This document shows, piece after piece, positions 5,210 to 41,610 of a DNA stretch of 64,000 bases. Every line of letters starts with the position of its first letter. Position 1 is the first letter of the stretch. Location of the stretch: NCBI GenBank assembly GCA_963930775.1, contig OZ005696.1, positions 6,882,001-6,946,000 on the forward strand, given 5' to 3'. Made by a program: the position numbers and the translations under genes. This DNA is from Cliona cf. orientalis. Taxonomy: Eukaryota; Porifera; Demospongiae; Clionaida; Clionaidae. Under the pieces are notes generated by a model. The model was not told where the DNA came from. It was given only the letters and a program-made list of their open reading frames with translations, and did no database searches.

Positions 5210-5600
5210 ACATCATGACTCCACTTCATCAGGATGTTTTACCTGTGCAAACATTTCAACTGGGTTTTAACTTCTGTGTTTTTATTGTTCCTATATTAGT
5301 TCTGCATCTCCTTATTGCTCCTAGTAAAATATTATTTGGCTCTTCATGCACACACAGGATGCAATATATAATATTATGCCATATGCTTATCATGTGATCT
5401 GCCTACAATACATTCTCTGTTCGGTTTGTGTTGCATTGAAGATAGGGCACTTGATGTCTTACATGTATACAGATAATCCAGCAGTGTGCTAATTTTAACA
5501 ATCTGTACCGAGTAATATTCAGCCACAGAGTTAATATTGGGCCTCAATATCAAAGAAGTGGTAAGAGGTCGGATATTCTAGCAGATATCTGACCAAGGCA

Positions 5601-8263: not shown

Positions 8264-8664
8264 ACAAGTATAAAAAGCAATTGAATAAAATTGAAGGATG
8301 AAGTAGGGATGGCAGTGCCAAAAAATACACAAACAAGATTTGTAGGGACAACGTATCACACCCACTATACATCCCTATGCTTGCTTTTTGAGTAGCCGTG
8401 CACACACATAATATTATTATAATAATATATGCATGGGGCACATGCAGGAATGGAAATCAATACCGTAAACCCATGGATAGCAATACTTTACGTACTGAAT
8501 CAGAAGTGTATGATAAGCGTAGGGATGTATAGTGGGTGTGATACGTTGTCCCTACAAATCTTGTTTGTGTATTTTTTGGCACTGCCATCCCTACTTCATC
8601 CTTCAATTTTATTCAATTGCTTTTTATACTTGTTACTGTTCTTTTTTTAGAGCCCTCGGGGTAG
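8264..8664. mobile_element. Foldback element, copy A
   Basis: Two arms of about 130 bp read as complements: ACAAGTATAAAAAGCAATTG at the left and CAATTGCTTTTTATACTTGT at the right, including GGATGAAGTAGGGATGGCAG. A second copy lies at 25267-25691 in the opposite orientation, with an extra 30-bp extension on one side (GAACAGTAACAAGT). The homologous spot after the third NLR copy (near 49640) lacks the element. Confidence 0.8.
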
Positions 8665-8960: not shown

Positions 8961-10002
8961 ATGGCAGATCATCAGGCCAGTAGAGGTCAGTCACATATAA
9001 TATTATTATTGATCTGATATAGATATTAATCCTGTAATTATTAAATACTTTTATTATTAGTACTAGACTGGCAGAAAGTGTATGGGTGTGTTTTAGTATC
9101 TGCACTGTTGTTCAGTTATAAATAAAGCTCCGATAGGGCCACTGCTCTCAGTGGAGTATGTACAGTATATTAAAACATAATGTATAATATATTATTATTA
9201 TTATATACATACTCATACACTGGATGGTAGCCAAGTACAGTCTTGATACCCCTAAACTGGTGCCATGCCCCCTCAAGGTTGCTTCTGGTGGGGAGATTGA
9301 TAAGCAATTAAGCCGCCGGTTTTGATGCTGCCTCCTTTTGGGTGGGATCTGGGCTACCCACAGTTCCATACTTGACTGTTTGACCTGGTTCAAAATTTCA
9401 CCTTGACCACTGTGACCTGATGTCACTACTTTGACCCCGGTAGCGAGTGGGAGTACATGTGCAGTCACCTACACGATGCCTTTCCCTCCCTTGAGGCCCT
9501 TAGAGCTGTAAATCATACGTAAAAAAAATCTTTTTAATGTCTTATTGATAGCCTTTTTTCCTTGTAGCCCCGCCCCTCTCAGTGGATGAGGTGCTCAAAG
9601 CAGTGGCAGGAGTCAACTGGAGGACACTGGGAAAGTGGCTCATAGGTGAACGAAAGGAACCTCTAATGAAAAGATATACCAACTTGGACAGAATTCGTGA
9701 TACGCATAAATCTGATGAGGCCCGACTCAGAGCAGTGGTGGAGGAATTTGTTGCTAAAACTGATAGATCATGGAGGAGAGTAATTTGCGCTCTTCACTAT
9801 GCAAAGGAGGTTGACAAGGCACAACAGATCAGCAGCTATGCTGAACCACCACAAGGTATGTACTGTATAGTGTTACTAACTACCTAAGCCTGATCTTCAC
9901 ACATTAATTAAATGGGAAGATCTGATGATCATGACATGTATCCTTACCATGCCTCATGCAGAATATCAATGTTCATTAGAAATGAGCCAATTCGTAGGAA
10001 CT

Positions 10003-10039
<37 letters not shown>

Positions 10040-13000
10040 GCTAGTTTCGCATGCACTTCATGTGTAAATATAACGTGTAGCTATAGTTGTGGCATTATGT
10101 TGGAATAATGGGGGGAGGGATTGGGCATAATAAATTATTGCATAATAATAGTATTATGGTTGCAAGTGGCTTTTCTAATATTAAAACCCAGTATCTAGAG
10201 TTAACATTAGCCTCATACCCAGGCTCTTTAGGGGATGAGGGAAGTAGCCTATATAGTTGGTACACACAGTTTGTGCCCACCTGTGTATGGCAATTCATGA
10301 ATGAGCATGTACTGATTATCCATGTACATGTATGTTTACCTGCCCACTGGCCAAGACCGTAAGCAAGCACTGAAGTTGCCTTACGTTGGATTGACTAAAA
10401 GACGGTCGGGTTGTTGATTGCTCCTCTATATATGCTAAGCATGAACAAGATAAGAAACGCAACTTGTAATTACCAATTTTTCATGAAGCAGTAGCCATTT
10501 TCGTTGTCATTGGGGCGAGCCGAAGCGAGCCCCACACAGGTGATGTCAATCGAGATTTTCCGTTTGTATATAATATTTATTATATATCTGCCGTACGTAC
10601 GTACGTCCGTCATTCCGTATATACCTGTCTTCTATTTCAACGATATACAATATTTCTTCCGTTACGCACATGCGCATACGACGTAGGAGTGAACACTTCG
10701 ATGTGGAGAAAGAGGGCAAGCTCTGTGACATCGAGGGACTAAAAAGGAAGAAAGACTAAGAAAACGCAGAAACAGATATCAGTTTCAAAAGCTTAAGGAG
10801 AGCTGTAGAGACTCAGACTGAGAGAGACAAGGCTACAGAGAAAAATTGTCGTTCTAGGCAGGCAGAGCGAAACATTTTGAGTGCAGAGGGTCCATGTGAG
10901 ACTCCAAATTCAAGGCCCTAAAAACAAGTGACTGTTGCTAGCAAAATGACCATGCATCTCTATGAGGCAAAATGATCATGCATCTCTATGAGGTTACGCT
11001 AAACTATGAGACCACTAGCCAAGTAGCTAGAGACACATTCTAACCATAGTTTCCACTCCCTCGAGTCAATCATAAATTCCGATCTGTATACCAAATTATT
11101 TAGTGTAGACTACTTGTGTGGGGTTCGCGGAGGCTCGCCCCATTGATGTTAAAACATCTTCTCTAGTTAACCCTCGCCGCAAAGCGTAGGCGGAGGGTTA
11201 CTGCAGTTGTTTGGCGATTTTTGTCCGTCTGTCCGTCCGTCCGTCGCAATCCTCCTTTGCTAAATGGTAAGGGTCGTCATAGAGAAAGTACGCTTTCTAG
11301 GTATACATAGCAAAGAGTGGTCATGTTAAGTCCTGCCTAGCCTCGTATCCAGGCCATCCCATGTTTTTCAACGTTGCAACGTTGAAAAACATGGGATGGC
11401 CTGGATACGAGGCTAGTCCTGCCCAGTGGAGTAGTAGTGTGCAGCTGTTGCAACTTGCCAGTCTGTGTTTACATGGCACCTACCTCAACTACATGACTGA
11501 TTGTCATTCTGTGCTTTGCTGGTCAGTTGTCAATGCAGTGACAGTGTAAACAGGCAGTGGCTCTCAAGTGCATAATTCAGTTGAAGTGTGTCACGGAGGG
11601 TTTCAGTTATAGTGGCAGAGCCAGGTGCCTTCCCCCAACTCTTAGATCACTGACTCTAAGGAAAACAGCTAGTTCCAGAACCCTGTTTAGGTGCAGGGTA
11701 TGTACTAGTTTAGTAGTACCACAAACCTGTTCAGGTGCAGGGTATGTAGTTCAATACTCCTGGCATTGACACAGTGACCCATGGGATGCATCGCCAGCTA
11801 TATTATATGCATGCATGTAGCGGTGAGGGTTCTGCACTCCTGTGCATTCATTGTGTCTGCATATAAATTGCTAGACTCGAAGTCTAATTATCAGTGGCAA
11901 TAAATTGGCTCCTTTTTCTTCTAGATGCTATATAGACAGGGACCATGAGCACCACAGATTGGTGCCATTATTGATCACACTTATATAAGCCACGTTTATT
12001 AATGCTATGTGCTGCTTGACTAGCCTCATCCCTTGGTGCCCCGATCATGCACTGAAAAAGATCGAGGCGCCTGGGGATGAGACTATTGCTTGACTGTGGA
12101 TGCTTGAATTTAGCATAATATTATTATATGTATGCTAAATTCCAGTATCCATAGTCAAGCAGTAGTGATCATCAAGTCAGAAATAGCAGTGGCGGATTTA
12201 GGGGGGTTTCGGAGGTTTCGACAGAACCCCCCTTTGGGCTGCACCTAGTTGTAAGAAGTACTGATGATAGGCTAACTGGAATCCCCCTCTCTGGCTACAG
12301 AACTAAGAAAACTGCTGCTATGGCTCACCTTAGCATGCTTTAGCAGAAAATTCGTTCAAAATCCATTGATTGGACTGGTAGGGCTGGTAGTTATGCACCT
12401 ATCAATTACATGCCCCACTACCCCCCCTACGGGAAGGGGTGGGGAGTACAGGGGATTTGACCCATAGCCAAGATCTATATAATACTTACAGCCCCACCCC
12501 GGGAGGAAGTTTAAGGATCAAATCCCCCCACCATCAAGTGGGGATTTGACCTATGAGGTGGGGATTTGACCCGATCACTAAGCAGCATTCTTTCTTCAAT
12601 AAACAGGTGGAAATGTCTATAACAGAATACAGAACTCATGAAGATCAAGATGATTGTGAACACAATAATTTTTACAATAATGACAATCAATTTGAACATT
12701 TTCTGCAAAAGTATTTATCAGATATTGGTTCACTGATAAGACCTTCACATACACAACAGTACCACTGGTTACATAAATCACATCCAATCCAAAATTCTTC
12801 AGTGCAAAGCGAGTACTCCTTGCCACATGTACCACAGTAGCACACTTCCTCTGATTCTTCATCACTGTTGGATGATTGCTCTCTCTGTGGCAGGTGCTGA
12901 GACTGATCTCCTGCTTGTTCTGGCCGGTGCTGAGACTGCTCTCTCTGTGGCTGGTGCCGAGACTGCTCTCCCCCTCCCTCTGGCCGGTGCTGAGACTGCT

Positions 13001-16000
13001 CTCTCTGTGGCCGGTGCCGAGACTGCTCTCCCCCTCCCTCTGGCCGGTGCTGAGACTGCTCTCCCCCTCCCTCTAGCAGGTGCTGAGACTGCTCTCTCTG
13101 TGGCTGGTGCTGAGACTGCTCTCCCCCTCTCTGTGGCCGGTGCTGAGACTGCTCTCTCTGTGGCCGATGCTGACACTGCTCTCCCCCTCCCTCTGGCCGG
13201 TGCTGAGACTGCTCTCCCCCTCCCTCTGGCCGGTGCTGAGACTGCTCTCCGCCTCCCTCTAGCAGGTGCTGAGACTGCTCTCTCTGTGGCCGGTGCCGAG
13301 ACTGCTCTCCCCCTCCCTCTGGCCGGTGCTGAGACTGCTCTCTCTGTGGCTGGTGCCGAGACTGCTCTCCCCCTCCCTCTGGCCGGTGCTGAGACTGCTC
13401 TCCCCCTCCCTCTAGCAGGTGCTGAGACTGCTCTCTCTGTGGCCGGTGCCGAGACTGCTCTCCCCCTCCCTCTGGCCGGTGCTGAGACTGCTCTCTCTGT
13501 GGCCGGTGCCGAGACTGCTCTCCCCCTCCCTCTGGCCGGTGCTGAGACTGCTCTCTTTGTTCTTGTAGCTGACGCTTCATTCTACGAGTTGCAGCAGCTT
13601 TAGCTGCTCCCCGCTTTCTGCTTTGTAGCACTGATAAGAGATGATTTAACCATATCTTAGTATCCTCCACACTCAATAAGACAGCTTTTGCAGCATCACT
13701 GATAAAATCATCCGTAATGTCACCATCCTTCAAATTAGAAAACATTTGCTTTAAAACAATGGATGGCGGCTTAGTGAGGCACTGGAGTGAAGCAGAGTCA
13801 CTAGTATCCACTAGTTTTGTTGTGTAATGGCCAGCACAAACACCCTTGCATGATGAACAGGTTTGTCCACCCCATGGCCTTTCAGGATCTGGAACTGGTA
13901 GAGGAATGTGAGTGATTGATGGCCCACCAGGATACCAGCGGAGGGTGGCAGGTGGTTGACCAGAGTGGCATATAGGGTGCTCACACTCTGGTTGATGACA
14001 ACACCTCAAGAAAAAGATGTAGCAGGAGGGTAGACCCTTCACCATATGGCGATTCCTTATACTCCAGATTTTGGTAAAGTGTGAAAAAAGAGCAGGATTT
14101 TCCCTTTGGAGAGCTTCTTTCTGCTTTTTGGAACCTTTGAGGAAAATTTCAATTTTGTCACTGATAGTGTGGTATTCCATTGAGGTAGATCCTTCATATA
14201 GACTGATAGTTGTGTCTCCCATTGGACAACCGTCAACTCTGCTAATGTATGCTGAAATAGCAAGACTAAGATTTTCTCTCAGCTTGGCTTCGTTTACCTG
14301 CCCTGTATTCCGGTCAATACAAGAACCAGCTAGGGTAGAAGGTATAAAAGTATTAGCATGTCCTAATGATAAACATCCGTTCTGTAACTCCACCCTGTTC
14401 AAGTATGATGAACCACTACTACGAGTAGTAACTAGTGTTGCTATCTTCTCCTTTCTGACATGCCACTCGGTCCACCAGTACTGGACTAGCTCATGACTTG
14501 GTCCCTCGTCCATGGCCCCATCTACTCGTACGCAATCAATTTGCTTGTTTTGAAAGACAGGCTGTAGCTTTTCCTTTTCACTAAGCATCAACAGATCCGA
14601 AAAATGCTGAGTAGGGTTTTTTTTATGAATAGGCACTGCCTTCACAACCCCTACACAAATCTCTGAAGTGGTTCTAGTTGCAGTAAAATTGTATGAAGTG
14701 GTTTGCAACACAGAGTTGTGTCTATTAACATAATCAGTTCTAGTGGTCAGTGTGTTTTTCCCTTGAACAGTTGGTGTTGTGTACTGCTTGCATGTAGTCA
14801 GCGTATCCAATCTGAATCCGGTAGCATCATCACGGTTCATGTTCAAAATATTTCGGCCATCAACATATTGCACCTGATTGAGAGCCTTGTAGAATGAAGC
14901 ACTCCAGTGAGTATCAGGATTAAAGCGGAGACTAAATCCTTTTCTTGCTCTACGCGAGGTGATCTTTGCCAAACTTTTATATCGTTTGCTTGAGCGGCGG
15001 CGTTTATTACGTGGGATACATAACTCAACCACTGTCCCAAATGCAAATCTTCTGTTGTAAACCTCTTCCAGATGTTTCTGGATCTTTTTGTACGTTACTT
15101 TATCCTTCAGCTTTGAATTTCCATCAAAGGTAAGTACACCCGTACGCCGCCATGCGTCCGCTCCCACTTGGTGATCTTCTACAAAAGATTCGATTGTTTC
15201 ACCAATATTTGGACAGTCTTGTAAGACTTTGCTCGTTCTTTTAGACAACTTGCGTGCTAATAATCTACTCTCAGCAATAAGTTTGGCACGCATCCTCCTA
15301 GCTCGTGCTTTGATGCTTACACGTCTCTTACGTACAAGTTCTCTTCCAGCATCACTGGTGACACTCTTTATTCCAATATACTGGTCAGGATCATCCGATT
15401 CTGATTCAGACACAATTTCACCATTTATGCTCCTAGCAATTCTCTCTTGCTCATATGACTCACTTGCATCCGCCTCAAAAGCACGATGAGATTGCACTGC
15501 ATGCTCTATTTGGTTTTGACTAAACCCCACGTGTGGGATTTGAAGGAAAAATTCGTCCAGATTTTTTGAAACATCTTTGCTGTCATTGTGTTCCATCATA
15601 CATTCAACATTTTCATGAAATTCAAACCAATTGAAGTTACTTTCAATCAGAGCTTGGGTAAGCAAGGAATGATCCAGCATTGTTTCACTACTATCTCCAA
15701 GAGATTCACAATCTGAACGGTCAGTTTCTTCGTCACTGCTTTCACTGGAGCTGCTGGATGTACTTTCAATTCCAAGTGTGTCCAGCACTGCTTTGTCTTG
15801 AGAAGAGGCTAGCATGTCAACTGCTTCATATATTTCTTGCACTTCCTGTATGCTGGATTCAATTCGTGCTGCACGTGACGTCATGTTTTCTATACCAAGC
15901 CAACGCCGTGCTTCAGATGGAGTGGCTCCTGATGTCTTATAGACAGCATATTTAATTAATTCTCTCTCTCTTTCATTTTGTGTGAGGGTTAACAGCTTCT

Positions 16001-19000
16001 TTAGCTCTTCTTTAGTGATTCCATGTTCTCTCACCACTTTCTGGATGTTTTCAGTGAAAAAATAAGCCAATCTTTCATAATTGACACCGTTCACCTTCTC
16101 CATTAAGTACAGCTCACTTTGACCCTTCTGCTTTTTAATCTGAAAAGCAACTACTGGCATCTGTAGCAAACGTCGTTTGGCGTTGGATGAAGTGTACGTT
16201 ATAGTTGGAAATACTTGCTTGAATACGGTACTCACAGGAACGATACCACGATCAACAATAATTTGAGCAGCTTGAATCATTGACATACAGTTTGTACATG
16301 GCTGATCATGGTTCTGTTTACAGTGATATTTTCTTGCTGTACAATACTCTACTAGAGTAAGACCTTGAACTTTGCTAACATATATACCTTCTGAAACAGT
16401 ATCGTATTCACTAAGTCCTTGACCTCGACAGTGTATGTACGTACTTACTAGTTCATTTAGTGGCCTCCCTGTAGCATCAGAACCACAGGGAGGCATCTCT
16501 AAAAAGACGTCTGACTATCTTGAGGTTGCTCCTCGCCAGCATCAGTGTTATTTTCTAGCGAGGAGACTGAAGGTGATGACAACTCTTGAGCATGTTGTGA
16601 GAGCACCAATTCTATCACAGAAGGAGAAGTATCACATGAAGGCATACTTGGTGAGAATGAATTCTCATCTGAACCAGTAGATTGTTGTGGTAAGCAGTGT
16701 GATAACAAATCCTCAATATTCTTGGCTAAGGGATTGAGCGAGATGTTACTGCTTAACGGGGAAGAGGAGGAAGCAACTATGAAGGGAGGACATGAAGAAG
16801 TTGTGGCCGAGCTGTGTGGTATCACATCAGTACTACAAGAAATATCAGACTGGGATAACAATGCTTCTATGACTGAAGCTGATTCAGAAGAGGATTGCAG
16901 TGGGCATGGTGGTGCCAGTGTAGCAGAAGACAGCACTCCCACAGAATTAGTCAGCACAGTAGAATCAATGTGGGGAGAGGTGAGAGAAGCAGAAGCAGTG
17001 ATGGGAGCAGTGAGTGAGGAAGCAGTGGCAACAAAATTGCTCGAAATGGCAGCAGTAGTCATTAAAGAGCCATCAACTGGTGGGTCTTCTCGAGGCATCT
17101 CATCCCAGTGTAAATCATAATGTGGGGATCTACATGGGCTGGTCAAATCAACCACATCATGAGACAGATGCTTCGATTGTGCAGGAGTGCTTGGAGTAGA
17201 CTCAGAGCTTGTGAGACTAGTACTACTTGGATCTTCAATCTGGCTCTTCGATGTATCCGAGTTTGGTGTTGTACTCCTAGAATGAGAGCCTCTAGTTCTC
17301 TGTTTTTTGGAATCAAAGTACCACCTTGACTGAGAAGATGATTTCTTCAAACGCTTTGCTTCTGCCTCCAATTGGCGACGCTGATGTTTCAGAGCCGTCA
17401 TTTCTTCCTTCACATCATCACACTTCTTGTACTCCCTTGAGTTTTCATATGCTGCAATACGCTTTTCTTTGAAGGTCAATCTCTCCGCTATATCTTTACA
17501 GTCTTCTTCTATCTCCTTTAATCGTTGCTCACGCATATCCTTTGAGAACTTCCTTCTCTTCGCAGGACGCTGCTGCTCATCCGGACCAGCTACTTTTTTT
17601 GAGCGTGACTTTCCCTTTACAAACTGAAAACCTTCAGCAATTATCTTGCTACGGGATTCTTCAATCAAAAGGGTTCGCTTGTGTAGCAAGGCAGGATTTT
17701 GTAGACAGAGATCTTGGGCCGCTTCATTCATCCTTTTCTGATAAGCTGTTAGGGGGCGATTGGTATCTTTTCGATAAATTTTTGCCATTTCCTTGATTTC
17801 ATCATGACTGTGCAATTCATAATTCATCGCTTGTATATCCTACATAAGCAAATGGTAGTAAAACTGTGCAACAATAGTACAGCTGTACATTTACTACAGA
17901 TCTCAGTACTTTTGATCCTCCAGTAATAAGTCTAGAAATTCAATTATGTACAACTGTTGGTCACTCCCTCAAAAACCTCTAGAAGGTACCATGAGTAAAT
18001 TATGGTTTACCAACTGCAGAGCACTCTATGTAACCCTACAAGGTCACAAAACAGGAAGATGCAAGTTTGTGCATGCAGCTTTCTTTATTGGGTTTCAAGA
18101 TAAATTTTTTTAATTATGAATTATGCACACTTACATGTATAACCCTTTATCTATATTTACTTGGACCCCTCTTATGGCCTTTGAACATAAACATTTAGTC
18201 TATATTATGACAGGTTCATGGGGTCCGATTCTTGCAAAAGGCCAGGTTTTGTGGCTTAATTTTTGCAGTATGGGGGGGGGGGGGGGGGGGGTACATGTAA
18301 TGTGGCAATAAAGGACCATTAGAAAAAGATATGACACTATCAGCAAACATGTCAAACACTCACCTCCTGAGAGGGAAGTTGAAGGGACATTTTTCCAGAA
18401 GAGCCACAAAGTTTTAGTTGTACTGGTCGGCCCGCCATTGAAGATGAACCACTGGACACAAGTTCCTGGCAAAAACAATAATAATAATCATATCATTTTG
18501 AATAGTTTATTTTAAATCATGATACACATACTTTTTCAGTTGAAGTGCCAGGTGCTGCAGAAATTTCATGTGGCTGCACAAAACTGGATTGTGACATGGC
18601 GAGGAGAGGTGGTGGTTTTGGTTTCTGCACCACCACTCTAATTTGGCATGTGTGCTCTATTTCTTGGTCCGGCATAATATCTACATATTCACCAATCCAG
18701 GGACCGGTAGCCGATTTAACCTGCAATGCCCAAGATAGCTAGTCACATACATGTAGCTTGCTAGCTGCATGCTGACTATATGACATACCTGAAGGAGAAG
18801 CTCCGCCTCACTTTCAGCAAGAACATCGCGAAAAGTGTTTCTGACTGCAGTCTGTAGACTGTCGATACCTCCACAAAATTTAACTGGACGCGCTCTTTCG
18901 CCCAAGTGCGCCAAAACCATCTTCTCCTCCATGTCCTCCATGATCGATCGCAGCTTCACAATTCAATGCATGCACGAGGCCCGTGCCGTACACGTCCGGG

Positions 19001-28000: not shown

Positions 28001-31000
28001 AATGCCAACGTGCCGAGGATTATGTGCTCTAGACAGCTCTCCATGGTTCAGCTACAGTGTACCTCATGGTCACTCACACCCATCCTCTACAGAGCCAGCA
28101 ATTTGCCTACAATGTATTTTAATATTCCTAGGCAATGGCAATCAGACATGTATGTGACTACCCTAGTTTTAAATTAAATTTTGGTACCTCTATTAATTAT
28201 TCCTAGTTATACTGTATACAATGGGTCAGACGGACATTTTTCTTATATAGTTTGTATCCTAATCTGGAGGGCATAAAAGATACACTTTCCTACAAGTTTA
28301 GAAGGCTCACAAAAGTTACCAGGGCCTAACATGGGTCTAGGGGCCATAGAGACGCATTCTTGAGCTCAAGCAAGTGGCGCAAAGTGCCGTGCATTTCAAC
28401 AGGCCTGCTTAGCAGGCCTCTGAGCCTCAAGCAAAGCGAGAGCAAGAATATCGCCATTACACAGTGAGTTCGAGCATTGCAGCTACAGCCACTCTTGGCC
28501 TGCAATGAGGGGTGAGGTCTACACCATAATAGCATAGGTTCAAAGTTTGGTGCTGCTTTCATCTGCACATACGCACTGTATTAACTGGCAATCGATTGTA
28601 CATGTACTGAGCATGCTGTTTGTAGTGTTCAGCCACATTATCCCATGATTGTGACATCAAACATACTTGTCATATGTATACAATGTACATGATAGTTTAT
28701 AGCTTAACAAGGATGGGCACACACACTCTCACTTGTCTGTGTTAATAGCAGCTGAACTGTACTAGAGCACCACAGACCCCTGTGTTGATAGCAGCTGAAC
28801 TGTACTAGAGCACCACAGGCATGCATCACCCCATCTACATCCTAAAGCTAGCTGGAAGAGAAAAACTCCGGGCAGCCGCCGGGAATCGAACCCAGGGCCA
28901 CTGACTTAAGCCGCCAGCGCTCTACCACTGAGCCACGACCACCCTTAGGCACCCGAACGCCATGCATGTATGTACAGTAGTTACCTATACTACCCTACCA
29001 TGTAGCCAGAAATTTTGGCGGGAATTAAATTTGGCAGATTGGCCTCAACCAACAAGAATAAAAATGTTGGCGGATTTTAATTTGGCAGATGGCTGAGCCA
29101 TGCCCCAAATCTGCCGTATGCACATGCACGCTGGAGATCATTGAGGTGAGTGGCTTGCTTTCGATTAAGCAATGGAGCGCTGCGTATGTAGGCATCATAG
29201 TATTTGGACTCCAACCATCTATGAGAGATTATTCTGCACTAAAGGAGAAATCGAAAACGAGCCTTGAAGGATCGGTACGTGGTAGAAGTGATTCCAGTGA
29301 GTGATACCAGGTACCAAGTTAGTGCAAATACCAGACGGTGACACCCACCAATTTGCTTCACAATGTGCAATCACCTTCGCGTGTGCAAAATGTGGGAATG
29401 ACTTAATATTGGTAAATTTTAATTTGGTGGCTGGCTGGCTGATCCCCCAAACCGCCAAATTTTCCAGCTATAATTATTATGGTATGTTCAAATCTATAAA
29501 ATCATGCCCTGTATATGTATATTCTGGGCAAGTGCCCACTACTGGATAAGTATTCATGCGCCCACAATGTATCACTGTTTACTTGTCCCCGCAGACCTCA
29601 CTCTCACCACTGATAAACTCACAGAGCTGTTTCAATCAGTGAGGGATCCAGATCATCGTCCAATACTTTCAAGATCTTTGGATTTTGGAATTGGAGGGTT
29701 CCTTGGTCTACCAGAGTCTGCATTAGCAGAGATCAGGATCTGCTACCAGAGCAATGCTAAGCGTAAAGAGGCTTACCTGGATACATACGTCCATCGTCAC
29801 CCATGCCCATCGTGGAAGAAGATTTGTGAGCTTCTGAAGAAATATTTCCTTATACAAGAGGCTTATGAGGTGGAGGATACCTACATTCAAGGCATGCATC
29901 TAATACAAATTTTAAGCTATTAAGCAACATATACAATGTGGCATGTCATGTAGCTGCGTACTTGAGCACAATTGATAGCAGTGCATGCATAGCACCATAG
30001 TTTGTCAGACAGGAAGATGAGAGGGAGAGGGAGAGTATCGAACTGCGTGTAACAGCCGTTCGTACGGTTCATGACCTTTATAATGATATTCATTTGTGCA
30101 AGTCACTCTGGAATGTACTAGCACTTATGCACACGCACTAGCACTACTATGGTACAAGTATATGCACCTTGCATGCCCTAGGAAAGCAATAATCGTATTA
30201 TGTGGCTACAATCTCTTTACCAATGACGGGCCTGACCACTCAAAATTTGCTTCCTACGGCCCTGAGACTCTGTGATTGAAGCTTCAAAACTTAATTGTCA
30301 CTGTCGAAGTCGAGAGCCACTCTCAGATTCCCGATATAGACTATGTACCCACTATAATGACGACCTTTACCACATACGCCACTTCCACCATGCAGCTGCT
30401 AAGGACATGGTCAAGTTTTCATTTAAATATGAATCCATTCCATTTAGTAGCGCGCAGTGCAGTGGCACACTAATTTTGTGTTATCTTGACAGTTACGTAA
30501 TAGTGGGTGTGTACGGCACATTATCGGACAACTGGGCATATCTGATATGCCATTTTGTGATATGATGGACATGCTCAGAATGTGTTGCCATGATGAAGTC
30601 ATGTGACAGCACCCTGGCGCATGGCCAGTCCGGCCCTCGGCGATTCCCTAGCCCTAGCTCTATAATAGATCCTACTTATATCAAATACAGTGATCTGATT
30701 GGTTAAACTGTAGTATCTATCCTTCATAAAATACCTTGTAAGCCCCATAAAAAAAACCTTGTAAGCTCCATAAAAAAACCTGGTAAATTTTGTTAGCCTA
30801 TGGCTAGTTTGTTGCTAGGCAATTGTTTATATAATAAAGCTTTTGGACATTGTTGCTAGGATCTAAAGTAGCTAGACACTGTTCAGTCGGTTTCTACGTG
30901 ATTTAGAAGACCTCAGAGCTCAGTAGAACCCTCGGATTCTACACAGAGCCCTTCAGTCTTCTAAATCACGTAGAAACCTCCTAAACAGTATCTAACTATT

Positions 31001-34000
31001 ATCTAGCACATGCAGCGCTAGTGTTCTAGTGCTCTGCTGGATCGATCAAGGATATGAAAGCACAAGGCTCGAGGAACGGTAAGGCGCTAGGCATAAGCGA
31101 GCTACTTGCTAGCGCATGCAGTGCTAGTGCTCCGCTAGATACCGTAAATCGCAAATATTTTGTGTCTAACATATTTCATGCAATAATTTTTCGTGTTACC
31201 GTGTTTATGCTAATGGAACGCAAGCAAAAAAAAATAATTTCAAATCTGGTTTGCGCACAATTAGAGTCAAAACAATTCCAGGAAGTGAATTTTCTTGTGT
31301 TAATTAGATGTTGCGTTGTAATAGAACAATTAGCATAGCTTTGAGCGACGACGAATAGTGGCTATCGATGGCCGGTATCGTACCTGTGCCCCTGGCCCCG
31401 ATCATCACGAGGGTAGCCTGAGAAAGGCCTTCTGACAGCCGCGCCGCATGGTTAACGATGCCACTGAATCGTGCTGATCACAGCCTGAGGCCCTGGCTGC
31501 TGGACTTAGTGCAGTTCCAACTAAGGTCAGTCCCGAGTGTAGTTTAGTACCCTCATGAACGACGAACGACACTTGCGATTTGGTTAGCTATAGCTAGCAA
31601 CGAGTCCGAGAGACAGAGCGAGATATCCAGAACGCAAGCAGGTGTGGTTTAACCGTGCAGCACGCGGTTTGAGCATGCGCAATAGCCTCACCTTAGCACT
31701 ATTGCGCTAATTGGATTCATAGAAAATAATTACAGACAGTCGCTTCCGTTCTAATAGAATACAGAAAATTCCTGGAATTGAATTTTCTTGCGGTAATTGG
31801 ATCATGCGTTCTATTAGCACAAACACGGTAAGTAATTTTCGGACAAACAACCCTGTACCGCATTATCATTAATATTGTGTATGTATTTTTGCACATTTAA
31901 TTTTGGCATAAGCCAGGCTGTCCGAAAATATTTAACAACGAAATATTCGCAATTTACGGTAGATCATGGATATGAACCCTGCGCAAGGCTCGAGGAGCGG
32001 TAACATACAGATTAATAGCTGCTGCCAACAATAAACCTTAGAACTTGGTTTTCTCCCTAAACGGAAGAGTCTCATCGCTACATCGATATCGGCCACCTAA
32101 CGCTGACTTCTTTGTCAGCATCATAGGCATAGGAATGCAAGTTAACAAGGGGTGTGGCTAAGAATTTTGCGCAGATATGATCTTCCATCTTCTACAATGG
32201 AATATTGACAGCAAACCATGTAAGATGAATTATACTGATCCCGACAAATGGGACAGACACGTTAATTGATGGCATCCCCCTGGACATAATAATTTATATC
32301 CCCCAGACTCGATTCTATAGACGGGGGATGCTATATGGTATGACACCGGTATGCATGAAAGTTGCATGGTATTTGATGAATGCCGCATTAATCCACGAGA
32401 ATTTAGCAAATAGTGTGATCCTTTAAGCTTTAATCCAGGTATATTATTTGTCAGATATAAGAGGTAACTACATAGTGCTGTACACTGTAAGTTACTATCT
32501 ATAAGGTACTGTACACTATAGCTAATTAATGGCTCCAGATGGCCTTAAAATTCGCTTGAAATACCAAATACACTATAGATTACCTCATGGGTTATAATTA
32601 CCTAATCACCACAGAAAAAATAAAGTGCTATTATCTATAAACATCTGATGAAATTTTAATTATTGGCCATGCCATTACATGTAACTATGCAGTATCTGAT
32701 AGAACCCGGCATTACTTTGACATTGCCATGAAAGGAGGAACTTTGATGATCCGAAATGGTGGCGTATTTTTCCTTGGTCCTGGTGGGTCAGGAAAGACCT
32801 GCACTCTTCATGCTCTCCTTCTGGAGCCACCTCCATCTGTACGACAGAGCACTCCATGTGCTAAACGAACAGTGAGAACTATAGCTCAATGCAAGGTGGG
32901 AGTGGAGGGAGTTTACTTCATTCGAATCCAAGATGACCAGTATTCTGACATGCTCAGCACAACAGCCAAGCAGTTACAGCCACAACCGCCCAGCATCAGC
33001 ACAGCCACTCCCACACCACCTGAAGAAGGAGCAATATCGAGAGATGATGCTTCAGTTCCTAGTCCAGCATTAGTCAGTCAACACATTGAGGAGGCAGACT
33101 CACACACTACCAAACAAGAAGAGAATCCAGATGTAAGTCCAGAAAAGAAGCAAAAGAAACCTTCATCTCGCCGCAGTGGTTTCGAGAAAGAATTGCTTCG
33201 TCGAATGCAGTTGGTGCCAAAGAGATCAGAGAATCTCATCGACAAAGATCTAATAGACATGAAGGATTCAGGGGGGCAACCAATGTTCCATGAAGTGCTA
33301 CCCCTCTTTGTCAAAAACACCACGTTCGGTGTACTTACAGTGAAGTTAAATGAAAGGCTGGATAGCTACCCCATGGTAGACTATTACAGCAATGGCAAAC
33401 CAGTAGGAGAGCCATTCCCATCTCCCTTTACCCATCTGCAGACCTTTCGCCACTGTATGAGGGTCCTTCAGTCGACTTGTAGCAAAGGCACCTGCCCAAA
33501 GCTTGTGTTCATCGGCACCCATAAAGACCTCGAGCAGGAATGCCCAGATGAAAACAGAGAGGAAAAAAATCGAAAGCTTCGAAGCATAATCCCTCCAAAT
33601 CTGAAGCAAAGCATCCTCTACTATGAGCATTCAAATGAAGAGCTTCTGTTTGGGGTCAATGTCAAAATACCAGGAGATATCGATCGTAAGATGATAGGGT
33701 GTGTACGAGAAAGAATGATAAAGGAGTTACGAAAGCTCCCACAGGAAAAAATTCCACTTCAGTACTTTGCCTTGGAGAATGCCTTCTTGCGATTGGCAAA
33801 GTACCAACGTAAAGGAGTTCTGAGCAAAGAAGATTGCTTTCAAGAGGCAGCTGCGTATCATTTCACGAAGGAATCTTTTGAAGCAGCCTTGAAGTACCTT
33901 CATGGCCTCAAGCTTATCTTCTACTATGAAGAGGTCCTTCCAGAAGTGGTCTTCAATGATGCCCAGACCATCCTTGACAAGATCACTGAGCTTGTTGAAT

Positions 34001-35746
34001 TTAGTCTGTCAGTGTCTTCACACTCCAAACCAGTACATGAGCTGACCATATCTATGGATATCAAGGAGTTTCAAGAGTTCAAAGCTTATGGCATTCTTAC
34101 ACTAGAGCTTCTTTCACAGTTTAGCTCTCACTATGTGCCAGGCTTATTCATGCAACAGCAGCTAGCCTTGCTCTTGAAATACCTACGGGTGATTGCTGAA
34201 GTTGGCAAAGGTAAGTACCTCATGCCCTGTCTCCTCAGAGTGTCAGCCATACCCCGTCTCTTACCACGCTCTACTGGGCCATCCATATCAGCACTTCTCT
34301 TCTATTTTGGTCCAAATGGTCCTGAGCTTGGAGTCTACTGTTTTCTCCTTGCTTCTCTAATCACTGAAGCCAAGTGGGAGCTCGTGACAGAGAATGATCG
34401 TCCAGTCCAAGTTTCACGCAACCAAGTTCAGTTTAGGCTTCCAGGAGATGACCCTGGTGTTATCACCATCACTGATTCCTTCTCGACTTCCTTTCACGTC
34501 AGTATTGACTTTCCTGAAGATATGGAGGCTGATGAATCTCTTAAGATAAGTAGTAGGGTTTGTCCAGGGATTTATGAAACAATTCTCTCTACAGTTCAAA
34601 AGGTTTCATACAGACTGAACTACAACAATTCAATCCCAAAGGTAGCTTTTCCCTGCACGAAGCATCTACCTGATGCTATACACCCTGCCACCATTTCAAG
34701 TACTGGATTTTTGACCTGTACGATTCATCCTACCTCAGTCTATAGTCGCCTTACAGAACAGCACCAGATCTGGTTCAGAGAGGAGGTTCATGCCAACATC
34801 AAAGGTACAAACATAATTATCCACAATTATTATTGCTCTCATTTCTATTATGTTTTGGAGAAGTATAGATAAGATTATATTTATTACGCTAGTTCACCAC
34901 ATTAGGTACTGACCTTTTTAAATCCTCTAACTAATTAACTCTAGGAGTTGACCAAAGTCGTCAGGTGCTTGATCAGGTGATTGATAGTGACCACAGTGGA
35001 GTGCCAGTGCATCTCGGTCAGATAGCAGACTCCATGTATGAGTGGGAGGGAACAGTTGCCGATAGTCTTGGACTTCACCAAGCTGATGTTGCAGAGATCA
35101 AGGAAGCACATTCTGGAAAACTAAAGCTACAAGCGTAAGTGATAATCCTTCCATGGACAAAAAATGTTACGTGGAAATGATTTTTATCACTACAGGAGAG
35201 CTGCTCTCGAGAAATGGAAGCAGTACAATGGCCCTAGAGCCACCTACAGGAATCTGATTGCTGCATTTGAACAAGCTGGTTGTAAAAATTTTGCTAGCAA
35301 AGTTTATGAGAGAGCCGGTAAGTAAGCCCAAACCACTATTGACCGTTATTCATTGTAGGATGTTATCCTTCTTAGGTGTACATTCAACTGTCACAGAAAG
35401 AAAGATTGAAAGTGGTCAAGCAAAAGCCTGTGCTGGTGCTCAGAAAAAGTATGAGTCGGCCACAATAGCAGCTGAAGGTGGTAAAAAGCCACAATTGGCT
35501 AAAGTATTCAAATTTCTCATTCCAATTGCTGAGGAGTGGCAAAACGTTGGAACTCTATTGGAACTTGAGGACGATGCCCTCACATCAATTGCTGCAGCTG
35601 GCAAGAAAGACATTGATCGCCTACGAGAGATGCTGAAACTGTGGGTAAGCCAAGAGGACCCTGTACCCTCATGGGAAGCACTGGCTGAAGCGGTGGAGCC
35701 ATTCAGTGGTGAAGTGGTTGCCAAGGTGAAGTCACAGTGTGCTTGA
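8961..35746 (+). CDS. Multi-death-domain Roc/COR-like GTPase (multi-exon)
   Basis: Exons joined by phase: 8961-8985 (MADHQASR), 9568-9855, 20252-20545, 22352-22618, 26061-26330, 26956-27255, 29595-about 29892, 32694-34804, 34945-35134, 35196-35317, 35376-35746. The seven N-terminal junctions are phase 1, so each death-like module is a symmetric cassette. The large exon encodes a GTPase with P-loop GPGGSGKT, switch DSGGQP and base motif THKD, followed by a COR-like region. Two death domains end the protein. Family knowledge: ROCO proteins couple a Roc GTPase to COR; death-domain ROCO proteins occur in animals (DAPK1 type) and act in death or stress signalling, probably in the cytoplasm. Whether all modules enter one transcript is inferred. 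Two incomplete paralogues start at 46558 and 57126. Confidence 0.75.
9568..9855 (+). other. Death-like module 1 of the multi-death gene
   Basis: Encodes APPLSVDEVLKAVAGVNWRT, then WLIGERKEP and SWRRVICALHYAKEVDKAQQ. The pattern W-R-x-L-G-x-W-L followed by S-W-R-x-V-I-x-A-L is that of an invertebrate death fold. Acceptor CTTGTAG and donor GTATGT are clear, phase 1-1. The intron before it is itself duplicated with the module at 47855-48247 and 57387-57629. Confidence 0.75.
10003..10038. repeat. Poly(G) run, 36 bases
   Basis: An uninterrupted G homopolymer in the second intron of the multi-death gene. It could form a G-quadruplex. Its length is likely to vary between individuals and assemblies. 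Confidence 0.95.
10511..11166 (+). mobile_element. Helitron-like element, degenerate copy
   Basis: Begins TGGGGCGAGCCGAAGCGAGC and ends in hairpin GATGTT-AA-AACATC, four bases, then CTAG followed by T. The last pattern matches the 3' end of Helitrons. The element at 58358-59427 has the same ends and the same internal TCAATCGAGATTTT block, but here the protein-coding part is short and broken. Nothing intact is encoded. Confidence 0.65.
11338..11415. mobile_element. 78-bp perfect palindromic MITE
   Basis: Two 39-base halves are exact reverse complements with no spacer. The ends are TAGCCTCGTATCCAGG and complement. GTCCTGCC is directly repeated at 11330-11337 and 11416-11423, an exact 8-bp target duplication. 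It is the smallest member of the TAGCCTCG family seen here. Confidence 0.9.
12021..12085. mobile_element. Short TAGCCTCATCCC inverted-repeat element
   Basis: Starts TAGCCTCATCCC and ends GGGATGAGACTA. TGCTTGAC occurs directly before it and again one base after it, a probable 8-bp duplication. It belongs to the same family as 11338-11415. A further palindrome (CTTGACTATGGAT type) follows at 12088-12160. Confidence 0.6.
12687..16496 (-). CDS. Transposon ORF2: putative transposase with Gln/Arg-rich repeats and C-terminal PHD finger
   Basis: A 1269-residue frame. The N-terminal third has Cys/His pairs (CTARKYHCKQNHDQPCTNC). The middle has an acidic-residue-bearing core: CVRVDGAMDEGPSHELVQYW, then TLVTTRSSGSSYLNRVELQN and GHANTFIPSTLAGS. 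Similar blocks occur in long transposon-borne proteins of many invertebrates, and D and E in VDGAMDEG could belong to a DDE-type site, which is an inference. From about residue 975 a tandem repeat EQSQHRPEGGGEQSRHRPQR runs for some 230 residues. A PHD finger ends the protein: CYCGTCGKEY, WIGCDLCNQWYCCVC, CRKC. The frame is intact, so the element may be young. Confidence 0.7.
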   Translation of the reverse strand: MPPCGSDATGRPLNELVSTYIHCRGQGLSEYDTVSEGIYVSKVQGLTLVEYCTARKYHCKQNHDQPCTNCMSMIQAAQIIVDRGIVPVSTVFKQVFPTITYTSSNAKRRLLQMPVVAFQIKKQKGQSELYLMEKVNGVNYERLAYFFTENIQKVVREHGITKEELKKLLTLTQNERERELIKYAVYKTSGATPSEARRWLGIENMTSRAARIESSIQEVQEIYEAVDMLASSQDKAVLDTLGIESTSSSSSESSDEETDRSDCESLGDSSETMLDHSLLTQALIESNFNWFEFHENVECMMEHNDSKDVSKNLDEFFLQIPHVGFSQNQIEHAVQSHRAFEADASESYEQERIARSINGEIVSESESDDPDQYIGIKSVTSDAGRELVRKRRVSIKARARRMRAKLIAESRLLARKLSKRTSKVLQDCPNIGETIESFVEDHQVGADAWRRTGVLTFDGNSKLKDKVTYKKIQKHLEEVYNRRFAFGTVVELCIPRNKRRRSSKRYKSLAKITSRRARKGFSLRFNPDTHWSASFYKALNQVQYVDGRNILNMNRDDATGFRLDTLTTCKQYTTPTVQGKNTLTTRTDYVNRHNSVLQTTSYNFTATRTTSEICVGVVKAVPIHKKNPTQHFSDLLMLSEKEKLQPVFQNKQIDCVRVDGAMDEGPSHELVQYWWTEWHVRKEKIATLVTTRSSGSSYLNRVELQNGCLSLGHANTFIPSTLAGSCIDRNTGQVNEAKLRENLSLAISAYISRVDGCPMGDTTISLYEGSTSMEYHTISDKIEIFLKGSKKQKEALQRENPALFSHFTKIWSIRNRHMVKGLPSCYIFFLRCCHQPECEHPICHSGQPPATLRWYPGGPSITHIPLPVPDPERPWGGQTCSSCKGVCAGHYTTKLVDTSDSASLQCLTKPPSIVLKQMFSNLKDGDITDDFISDAAKAVLLSVEDTKIWLNHLLSVLQSRKRGAAKAAATRRMKRQLQEQREQSQHRPEGGGEQSRHRPQREQSQHRPEGGGEQSRHRPQREQSQHLLEGGGEQSQHRPEGGGEQSRHQPQREQSQHRPEGGGEQSRHRPQREQSQHLLEGGGEQSQHRPEGGGEQSQHRPEGGGEQCQHRPQREQSQHRPQRGGEQSQHQPQREQSQHLLEGGGEQSQHRPEGGGEQSRHRPQREQSQHRPEGGGEQSRHQPQREQSQHRPEQAGDQSQHLPQREQSSNSDEESEEVCYCGTCGKEYSLCTEEFWIGCDLCNQWYCCVCEGLISEPISDKYFCRKCSN
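12870..13570 (-). repeat. In-frame tandem repeat within transposon ORF2
   Basis: Units of 30-36 bases (GGTGCTGAGACTGCTCTC plus variable CCCCTCCCTCTGGCC or TCTGTGGCC parts on the plus strand) repeat about 20 times and encode REQSQHRPEGGGEQ-type peptides. Long plus-strand frames in the same place are its shadow. Confidence 0.9.
16499..17842 (-). CDS. Transposon ORF1 main exon: coiled-coil and Ser/Thr-rich protein
   Basis: Acceptor TTATGTAG precedes GATATACAAGCGATG at about 17842. The frame encodes a charged helical part (RLKEIEEDCKDIAERLTFKE, then EEMTALKHQRRQLEAEAKRL), probably a coiled coil, and then a Ser/Thr-rich part. It stops at TAG 16499-16501, three bases before the ATG of ORF2 and in a frame that differs by -1. 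A run of five T lies just before the stop. I do not recognise the family. Confidence 0.6.
18364..18959 (-). CDS. Transposon ORF1 upstream exons
   Basis: Three candidate exons on the minus strand, about 18959-18789, 18721-18532 and 18467-18364, have GT-AG borders and lead to the main ORF1 exon. They encode MEDMEEKMVLAHLGERARPV, VKSATGPWIGEYVDIMPDQE and MAGRPVQLKLCGSSGKMSLQ. No known domain was seen. The first ATG could be at 18959 or 18941. A 20-base poly(G) run (18272-18291) lies in the next intron. Confidence 0.5.
19530..19990. repeat. Dispersed repeat with recurring AAGCGCATATT and AGGCGCATTTCGC
   Basis: Short blocks TTAGGCGCATTTCGCTTATA and ATTAAGCGCATATTTTG recur directly, and the right part (CACATGCGCTTAATAGCGGG) is inverted to the left. 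It looks like a degenerate inverted-repeat element ending AAAATACGGTA. No coding capacity was seen. Confidence 0.5.
20252..20545 (+). other. Death-like module 2 of the multi-death gene
   Basis: Encodes DPTLTVESLVGVMMKVTSDE, EVYSKYTIAEEKTHALADVY and PDSSWQHIVKTLYTESELAA. Six-helix death-like pattern with a central conserved SSW. Acceptor TTTGCAG, donor GTATGT, phase 1-1. It is closest to the modules at 60258-60551 and 62037-62330 of the third paralogue. Confidence 0.75.
20558..21706. repeat. Dispersed repeat starting AATCCTCTGCGAATGCACGA
   Basis: Shares its start (CGAGGGTTATGGTAGT), body (TCTGTTACC, AAAGTGCTCTGTTC) and end (GCGCCGAGGGTTTGGCACC) with 60640-61228; part of the body recurs at 27700-27905. 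It follows the same module exon in paralogues 1 and 3, so it was present before that duplication. Nothing coding seen. Confidence 0.5.
21093..21304. mobile_element. Inverted-repeat element with TACCTTA ends
   Basis: Left TACCTTAGGGCTAC and right GTATCCTTAAGGTA are inverted repeats, and TTAGCGGGTAC inside is matched by GTACCCGC. TA borders suggest a mariner-type non-autonomous element. Confidence 0.5.
21781..21942. mobile_element. Short MITE with CAGGGTTTA ends
   Basis: Begins CAGGGTTTAGTTTGCTCG and ends AATAAACCCTG. A diverged copy is at 62455-62608, again after a death-module exon of a paralogue. Confidence 0.55.
22352..22618 (+). other. Death-like module 3 of the multi-death gene
   Basis: Encodes DPTLTVENVTTAMEKVTVDE, EEIYSNHSSEKERLYSCASH and SSWKDLVQRLYANSEMAAAK. 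Acceptor TTTCCAG, donor GTAGGT, phase 1-1. About 90 residues. Confidence 0.75.
22700..24370. other. Intron sequence, no gene seen
   Basis: AT-rich intron between modules 3 and 4. It has short simple repeats but no exon-like stretch with good borders. Confidence 0.5.
24380..24600. repeat. Dispersed repeat, copy A
   Basis: Shares AATCCACTCCATTTTGGAGC, TGTATTATC, GTGGGTGTGTA, GCCATTTTGT and GAAGTCATGTGAC in the same order with 30405-30625. Confidence 0.6.
25267..25691. mobile_element. Foldback element, copy B
   Basis: Same element as 8264-8664 in opposite orientation. Arms from ACAAGTATAAAAAACAATTG to the complement at 25691, with the extension CTGAGGGCACTAAAAAAAGA on the left. It lies inside an intron of the multi-death gene. 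Confidence 0.8.
26061..26330 (+). other. Death-like module 4 of the multi-death gene
   Basis: Encodes DPTLTVENVTRAMEKVTVDK, EEIYSSHSSEEEKLHSCADV and SSWETLVRVSFFCGEMAAAK. Acceptor TGTCCCAG, donor GTGGGT, phase 1-1. Closest to module 3, suggesting tandem duplication. Confidence 0.75.
26956..27255 (+). other. Death-like module 5 of the multi-death gene
   Basis: Encodes DPTLMVENVAGVMEKVVVDK, DEIYSSHSSEKEKMHACSDV and SSWEHLTSLLYEKDELTAVD. Acceptor TTCCCCAG, donor GTAAAT, phase 1-1. It is longer than module 4 by an insert (RMPKPTLDI). Confidence 0.75.
27360..27692. mobile_element. Inverted-repeat element with TATAGACGACTTAAGG ends
   Basis: Terminal inverted repeats of about 40 bp: TATAGACGACTTAAGGCATG on the left and the complement on the right, extending through TTTAGCCCATTAACTGCA. 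TA borders. No ORF. Confidence 0.75.
28872..28942 (-). tRNA. tRNA-like sequence (possible tRNA pseudogene or SINE head)
   Basis: On the minus strand an A box TGGCTCAGTGG and a B box GGTTCGATTCC are correctly spaced. The acceptor stem pairs with three G-U pairs, the D stem GCTC/GAGC and T stem CTGGG/CCCGG pair, and the anticodon stem CTGGC/GTCAG pairs. The seven-base loop is GGCTTAA, which lacks the usual U33, so a working tRNA is doubtful; read literally the anticodon is CTT. It lies in an intron of the multi-death gene. Confidence 0.5.
29003..29470. mobile_element. Inverted-repeat element with TAGCCAGAAATTTTGGCGG ends
   Basis: Left TAGCCAGAAATTTTGGCGG and right CCGCCAAATTTTCCAGCTA pair with few mismatches. 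The inner border also repeats AATTTGGCAGAT and complement. A 71-codon open frame inside (29089-29304) has no recognised domain. Confidence 0.6.
29595..29892 (+). other. Death-like module 6 of the multi-death gene, diverged
   Basis: Encodes DLTLTTDKLTELFQSVRDPD, AEIRICYQSNAKRKEAYLDT and CPSWKKICELLKKYFLIQEA. Acceptor CCCGCAG is clear and phase 1 fits. The expected donor after CAA G reads GC instead of GT, so either a GC-AG intron or another border is used. Confidence 0.65.
30405..30625. repeat. Dispersed repeat, copy B
   Basis: Diverged copy of 24380-24600; preceded here by a TGACGACCTTTACC core at 30358. Confidence 0.6.
30873..30997. repeat. Inverted repeat GTTTCTACGTGATTTAGAAG
   Basis: Two arms of about 45 bp (TTTCTACGTGATTTAGAAGA and complement, flanked by ACTGTT and AACAGT) around a short spacer. 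Probably a small foldback element. Confidence 0.65.
31140..31961. mobile_element. TA-flanked inverted-repeat element with TACCGTAAAT ends
   Basis: Left TACCGTAAATCGCAAATATT and right (complement TACCGTAAATTGCGAATATT) are terminal inverted repeats, bounded by TA. It is related at its tips to 49743-49933. The inside repeats AATTCCAGGAAGTGAATTTT and GGAATTGAATTTTCTTG. Confidence 0.65.
32694..34804 (+). other. Roc/COR-like GTPase exon of the multi-death gene
   Basis: Phase-1 entry after ACTATGCAG reads VSDRTRHYFDIAMKGG and then the GTPase. Counting from the internal Met at 32728, the P-loop GPGGSGKT is at 17-24, DSGGQP at 180-185 and THKD at 264-267. A Ser/Pro-rich insert of about 80 residues lies between the first two, long for a Roc domain. 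The region after residue 330 (LENAFLRLAKYQRKGVLSKE, then ALKYLHGLKLIFYYEEVLPE) resembles COR, the dimerisation part of ROCO proteins. Donor at 34805. Confidence 0.8.
34945..35746 (+). other. Two C-terminal death domains of the multi-death gene
   Basis: Exons 34945-35134 and 35196-35317 encode one death domain (LGQIADSMYEWEGTVADSLG, EIKEAHSG, KWKQYNGPRATYRNL) that matches the death domain of the NLR-like gene at 5601 in its KWK-x-x-NG-x-x-ATYR motif. Exon 35376-35746 encodes a second one (LIPIAEEWQNVGTLLELEDD, WEALAEAVEPF) and the TGA stop at 35744-35746. Confidence 0.75.
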
Positions 35747-41206: not shown

Positions 41207-41610
41207 GCATTGTGATTCCACTTCATCAGAATGTTTTACCTGTGCAAACATTTCAATTGGGTTTTAACTTCTATGTTTTTTTTATTGTTCCTATGTTAGT
41301 TCTGCATCTCCTTATTGCTCCTAGTAAAAAGTAATATTATTTGGCTCTCCATGCATACACAGTACTGGATGCAGAAGATGTATTATGCATAATAATAATA
41401 TATGCCTATTATGGTAATCATGTGATCTACCTACAATACATTCTGTATTCTGTTTGTGTTGAAGATAGGGGCACTCGATGTCTTGCAGCGTGCTAAACGT
41501 CAAAATTTTAACGATCTGTACCGAGTAATTATCAGCCACAGAGTTGTTGGGCCTCAATATCAAAGAAGTGGTAAGAGGTCGGATATTCTAGCAGATATCT
41601 GACCAAGGCA

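Follow-up and report, generated by a model that had tools for sequence, protein, structure and literature searches.

A locus of the sponge Cliona cf. orientalis raises the question of whether six death-like modules, a Roc/COR-type GTPase and two Death domains belong to one predicted protein, and whether such a protein is a single-gene oddity in its genome. Roco GTPases have been linked to Parkinson's disease (LRRK2) and to cell death (DAPK1), and to our knowledge their activation is poorly understood; the death fold is usually regarded as a signalling adaptor. We analyzed a stretch of 64,000 nucleotides (C8:6882001-6946000, hereafter the window) and carried out profile and sequence searches over the whole genome of 216.8 Mb.

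Gene model and surroundings

Eleven exons on the plus strand, between 8961 and 35746, were assembled from the sequence and join without a stop into a predicted frame of 1511 amino acids. The order in the predicted protein is N module, four B modules, Z module, GTPase exon and two Death domains. The exons are the following, with the basis of each assignment given last.

8961..8985, + strand: exon 1, start codon, MADHQASR, ends in phase 1; ATG and GT donor
9568..9855, + strand: N module (death-like), phase 1-1 exon; frame and N-type family profile
20252..20545, + strand: B module 1 (death-like), phase 1-1 exon; frame and junctions
22352..22618, + strand: B module 2 (death-like), phase 1-1 exon; frame and junctions
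26061..26330, + strand: B module 3 (death-like), phase 1-1 exon; the copy used for structure prediction
26956..27255, + strand: B module 4 (death-like), phase 1-1 exon; frame and identity with paralogs
29595..29891, + strand: Z module (death-like), phase 1-1 exon with GC donor; Z-type family profile
32693..34804, + strand: GTPase exon of Roc-COR type, phase 1-1; P-loop, G3 and G4 motifs, then a COR-like region
34945..35134, + strand: first exon of Death domain 1 (DD1); Pfam Death on the spliced domain
35196..35317, + strand: second exon of DD1; Pfam Death on the spliced domain
35376..35746, + strand: last exon, with a linker, Death domain 2 (DD2) and the terminal stop codon; Pfam Death

Acceptors are AG in all ten introns and donors are GT in nine of them. 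Phase 1 is kept at every junction from exon 1 through the donor of the GTPase exon; the module exons are thus symmetric (1-1), so that the gain or loss of a module leaves the frame intact. The stop-free frame and the matching splice phases bear out the original prediction, made from the letters of the DNA, that six death-like modules, a Roc/COR-type GTPase and two death domains lie in one predicted protein. Its end points for the gene, 8961 and 35746, agree with the exon model, and its start of the GTPase exon, 32694, has to be corrected by one base to 32693.

The remaining donor is that of the Z exon, which reads GC (29892-29893); all eight paralogs inspected carry GT there, and a transcript lacking this exon would stay in frame. 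A GC donor could be the mark of a copy that, within a real family, is decaying and nearing a pseudogene. The fast evolution of the modules would agree with decay, as would a 5 kb element inserted in intron 2, of which a near-identical copy exists elsewhere:

12687..17839, - strand: transposon-like element in the intron between N and B module 1, outside the coding part of the gene; frames of 1275 and 446 aa

The 1275-aa frame has a coding minisatellite near its end, composed of alternating 27- and 33-bp units, and finds 45 matching pieces in the genome, many of them on C1; one copy on C18 matches this frame at 100% (rounded) over 1063 aa, which indicates that the insertion is probably young. 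However, GC-AG introns are a normal minority class, and the 1511 codons hold neither a stop nor a frameshift. In comparison with paralogs, dN/dS is 0.19-0.26 for the GTPase exon (6 comparisons), 0.36-0.90 for the modules (15 comparisons) and 0.44-0.64 for DD2 (3 comparisons); the GTPase exon is strongly constrained and the modules less so. Decay is unlikely in the face of these findings.

NLR genes are found on both sides. Upstream, 5565-7985 (+) is an uninterrupted Death-NACHT-NOD2_WH frame according to Pfam; downstream, a Death-NACHT-NOD2_WH gene at 41575-43909 (+) is split across several frames, and the Death domains of these two genes are 96% identical. The 25 bases of exon 1 are repeated exactly at 46558 and 57126. 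The first copy (46558-46582) precedes a partial N module (48270-48443, +), possibly the remnant of another family member. The second precedes a whole N module, and here the next family member starts within the window (57126-62323, +; exon 1, N and two B modules), its GTPase exon lying beyond the window at C8:6960633. A tRNA-Lys (ctt) is predicted at 28870-28942 (-), within the intron that separates B module 4 from Z. Two copies of a MITE-like inverted-repeat element occupy 8264-8633 and 25298-25691 (arms of 119 and 125 nt, 99% complementary), and the frames of an STPR repeat protein (58548-59309) and of an rve integrase (63024-63998) are probably pieces of mobile elements.

Modules, GTPase and Death domains

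None of the six modules, the N and Z copies included, matches Pfam Death singly in the window exon frames scanned; their death-fold nature is argued from family profiles and from one predicted structure. Pfam Death is found in 7 of 19 members of the N-type family (best E 3.6e-5) and in 12 of 19 members of the Z-type family (best E 7.1e-5), and in 0 of 26 B modules. The profiles were compared by hhalign with an alignment of ten Death domains, two from the window and the eight best of the genome-wide Death matches: E is 6.5e-8 for N, 2.1e-8 for Z and a weak 0.016 for B. The B, N and Z profiles also match mutually (hhalign E 9.1e-13, 1.1e-11 and 6.9e-8, each a single comparison). Searches of PDB sequences gave nothing useful with the B and Z profiles, and with the N profile they placed the Fas death domain, at E 0.019, below two repetitive designed proteins and above a terpene synthase.

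The original prediction had pointed to structure prediction of the modules and of the GTPase exon as a check, and this succeeded in part. B module 3 is predicted as a six-helix bundle (pLDDT 93.6) that is closest to death domains in structure comparison; the model of the GTPase exon, predicted from its single sequence, is unusable (pLDDT 38.7). On these profiles and this model, the N, B and Z modules look like death folds. The B modules differ in length chiefly in the loop that connects helix 2 to helix 3, and B module 4 is 80-85% identical to the last B module in three neighbouring paralogs.

The GTPase exon encodes 703 residues in which GPGGSGKT, DSGGQ and THKD follow each other in the order of Ras, with a polar stretch of about 75 residues separating the P-loop part from the DSGGQ part. 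The family alignment comprises 22 of 30 loci, since L015 and L034 were omitted for stops; L016, L024, L027, L028, L031 and L038 were also omitted. All 22 aligned members keep GKT in the P-loop, GQP in G3 and THxD in G4 unchanged, and their G3 reads D-S/T-G/A-G-Q. THxD is the G4 form of Roc, and the corresponding motif in the LRR-Roc-COR proteins of this genome is THLD. At E up to 10, Pfam Roc is found in 17 of the 22 members (best 3.9e-4; the two scores inspected, 16.6 and 16.3 bits, are below the cut-off of 27) and Pfam COR-A in 14 (best 1.2e-7). In a genome scan that scored the best 150 of 290 candidates, the COR-A cut-off of 35.3 bits is reached by at least 10 of the 95 listed loci (C17:1976952, C11:2211512, C11:2991647, C8:2753836, C8:2676377, C8:9291926, C8:9406983, C7:4347840, C1:4593326 and, only with neighbours in the frame, C16:5677545). 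When the family profile is set against the LRR-Roc-COR proteins of the genome, the G4 motif and the COR side are aligned (E 6.4e-5, probability 64%); the control comparison of the GTPase profile with the Death alignment gave nothing. A PDB sequence search with the GTPase profile returned no Roc/COR chain and five chance-level matches, including KIF19 and FtsE. As judged from motifs and profiles, the Roc/COR label holds for the family, by its G motifs and its COR-A matches, whereas the window copy alone, described in the original prediction as Roc/COR-like, matches neither Pfam Roc nor COR.

Pfam AAA_22 and AAA_16 also appear, in 10 and 9 of the 22 members respectively, with weak E values (best 0.011 and 0.016), and the adjoining genes encode NACHT, as would fit an exon that codes for an NTPase of STAND type in place of a Roc GTPase. 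Yet both flanking genes match NACHT and the window GTPase exon does not, NACHT is absent from the 14 Pfam families listed for the 22 members, and D-x-G/A-GQ and THxD come after the P-loop and are followed by the COR-A match. A NACHT-type NTPase was rejected on the Ras-like motif order, the COR-A match and the lack of NACHT among the listed families, and we hold a STAND-type NTPase to be highly improbable; a Roc-COR type GTPase is the reading retained.

At the C-terminus, Pfam Death gives 41.7 bits for DD1, spliced from its two exons, and 25.5 bits for DD2, against a cut-off of 22.6. Over 78 aa, DD1 has 37% identity with the Death domain of the upstream NLR gene (5565-7985), a likeness which makes shared adaptors conceivable. 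When tblastn is applied to 29 further loci and their 1.5 kb flanks, DD1-like or DD2-like sequence appears in 15 (L010-L016, L019-L021, L024, L029, L033, L035 and L037), of which L019 and L037 have a Pfam Death match below the cut-off; nothing passed in the remaining 14, flanks included. Among these 14, L036 and L038 exceed the Pfam Death cut-off, L022, L023, L025 and L026 have death-like frames by eye only, and L017 and L018, inspected by eye, have no death-like frame. A C-terminal Death domain thus appears to be common in the family, on sequence matches that cover part of its members only.

A probable single gene in a genome-wide family

The same features could be shared out between two neighbouring genes, one for an adaptor made of modules alone (exon 1 to Z) and one for a GTPase-Death protein, kept side by side by tandem block duplication. 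Block duplication alone could yield a conserved order, and introns of 10.4 kb (N to B module 1) and 2.8 kb (Z to GTPase) separate the parts. Against this, Z-GTPase pairs recur on eleven other contigs (C1, C4, C5, C7, C9, C11, C13, C15, C16, C17 and C19). In each of the 30 loci examined, among them that of the window, the acceptor of the GTPase exon is in phase 1 and falls at one and the same codon position; it lies at the listed place in 27 of them, and in L017, L018 and L023 the match begins one codon later. In the family alignment, conserved codons precede the first ATG of the GTPase exon and, with the conserved acceptor, they argue against a separate GTPase gene. In all eight paralogs inspected, the Z donor is at the same place and leaves phase 1. 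Separate genes for the modules and the GTPase, made unlikely by the conserved order, the phase-1 acceptor and the place of the Z donor, were rejected on these grounds, and the chance that remains for two neighbouring genes is quite small.

For the family to which this single gene is assigned, the N, B, Z and GTPase matches were listed by their place in the genome and then read in order on each strand. The searches scored 63 of 566 and 66 of 570 candidates for the GTPase, and 150 of 307, 150 of 227 and 150 of 364 for the modules; totals and B numbers are lower bounds. The 95 GTPase loci are composed of all 63 of the first listing and of 32 new ones from the 66 of the second. All 150 listed B matches were used. 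Of 149 N matches, 95 were used, and 54 (45 on C3, 6 on C4, 2 on C6 and 1 on C14) were left out, being taken as a separate Death expansion or as weak matches. For Z, 126 of 150 were used and 24 with E of 5.5e-5 or worse were left out; one of the latter, C5:2089261, falls in the sole locus counted as N-B-B-G.

Z is the nearest upstream feature on the same strand within 25 kb for 93 of the 95 listed GTPase exons, with a median distance of 2.9 kb between listed starts. The full order, N followed by 0 to 10 B modules, Z and GTPase, is present at 80 of the 95 listed GTPase loci, and a GTPase exon comes next after 80 of the 88 listed runs of N, any B modules and Z. When labels are shuffled within each contig strand (5000 trials), the full orders average 7.9 and never exceed 19, and Z-GTPase neighbours average 24.7 and never exceed 40. 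The exon order is therefore beyond chance, and a chance assembly of frames was rejected, as 80 of 95 full orders exceed the maximum of 19. The layout is common to most listed related loci in this genome and is no single-gene oddity; the idea of a protein standing alone is not borne out.

The number of B modules varies among the 80 runs. Taken as minimum counts, there are none in 18 runs, one in 32, two in 11, three in 11, four in 6, seven in 1 and ten in 1; the window gene, with four, has six death-like modules in total. The longest array among the listed loci, C8:5822938-5858909 (-), places ten B modules between N and Z ahead of the GTPase exon; as a single gene, it would have twelve death-like modules. 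On contig C3, at about 9.9-10.4 Mb, there is a separate cluster of N-like Death modules, which holds 29 of the 45 listed C3 matches.

Known relatives and proposed function

DAPK1-type Roco proteins (group 3) resemble the window gene in that a Death domain at the C-terminus comes after a Roc-COR GTPase; DAPK1 also has ankyrin repeats. A kinase stands ahead of its Roc-COR, according to the available part of a Roco review (PMC6337361). In nine exon frames scanned with Pfam at E up to 1, the window gene shows neither kinase nor ankyrin repeats; in their stead it has six death-like modules, and it ends in two Death domains. No LRR match, the feature of Roco groups 1 and 2, was found in the nine frames at the same limit. 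In the excerpts available, placozoan ROCO genes carry CARD and death domains (PMC11378527) and the actiniarian NG3 is composed of kinase, death, TIR and Roc/COR (PMC5094078). Both resemble the window gene in combining Roc-COR with death-fold domains, and a tandem death-fold array is not mentioned in these partial descriptions. Together with DAPK1, they are the nearest in content among the literature searched, as far as the excerpts reach.

The nearest published parallel in design, within the same literature, is in brown algae, whose LRR-ROC-COR genes are described in the excerpts as expanded candidate immune receptors, with LRR exons of 72 bp in constant phase 2 that are shuffled by exon duplication (PMC11378527). 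The two systems have in common an expanded family, a ROCO GTPase behind single-exon repeats and one constant splice phase, and they differ in that the sponge gene uses death-like exons of 267-300 bp in phase 1. Another sponge, Amphimedon, has an expanded set of Death-like and TRADD-N proteins, with one to three N-terminal death-like domains before a variable part, in the portion of the report available (PMC8195603). It is similar in its large lineage-specific expansion and its N-terminal death-like domains. However, as described there, that set is centred on TRADD-N with the variable part at the C-terminus, whereas the sponge gene of the window is centred on Roc-COR with the variable array at the N-terminus. 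The layout was not met in the literature searched, much of it in excerpt (subscription papers and the genome annotations of other animals lie outside this scope), in agreement with the original prediction, whose author knew no described protein with this exact layout; against the Roco proteins described in these sources it is unusual.

The gene is best read as encoding a receptor or scaffold of Roco type in which a variable array of death folds stands in the place of the LRRs carried by other Roco proteins. We give a probability of roughly 60% to its being one gene of a large Roco-type GTPase family whose product is an intracellular immune or cell-death switch or scaffold. The anatomy comes from computation, and each step of its action is inferred from the families concerned, in part through the available text of the Roco review (PMC6337361). 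Five steps may be envisaged: (i) the GTP state and COR contacts would set the monomer or the dimer; (ii) death-fold partners that match it, or foreign ligands, would attach to the N-terminal death-fold array; (iii) the array, once clustered, would seed helical death-fold assembly; (iv) the two Death domains at the C-terminus, one of them similar to its counterpart in the adjacent NLR, would draw in shared adaptors and pass the signal on; (v) B modules would change in number and identity as in-frame 1-1 exons are duplicated, so that partner specificity could evolve fast around an unchanged GTPase engine. Multimerisation through both COR and death-fold contacts, as originally proposed, is plausible from the families concerned.

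A bolder version, which we consider doubtful and put forward tentatively, is that the death-fold array is itself the variable recognition surface that replaces LRRs. Its swappable exons with their length-variable helix 2-3 loop would, by duplication, loss and perhaps alternative splicing, give a combinatorial partner code for immunity or self/non-self, read by a constant Roc-COR switch.

The gene could instead encode a scaffold or regulator that acts constitutively and has no part in immunity, its expansion being ordinary tandem duplication. Roco proteins have many roles in the review text available (PMC6337361). But the 95 listed loci, mostly in arrays, and the variable number of modules fit a receptor-like family better, and the higher dN/dS of the modules than of the GTPase and the NLR genes on both sides point in the same direction, so that a purely constitutive role seems rather unlikely, with some weight left to it.

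Under the preferred reading of a switch or scaffold, this is a large, fast-changing gene family whose members may act as intracellular immune or cell-death switches. At least 80 natural variants, with one conserved GTPase and varying death-fold arrays, would offer a comparative test of the coupling between clustering and Roc-COR. The family would also add to an animal genome another expanded class of receptor-like genes beside the NLRs, with the death fold as its repeat unit.
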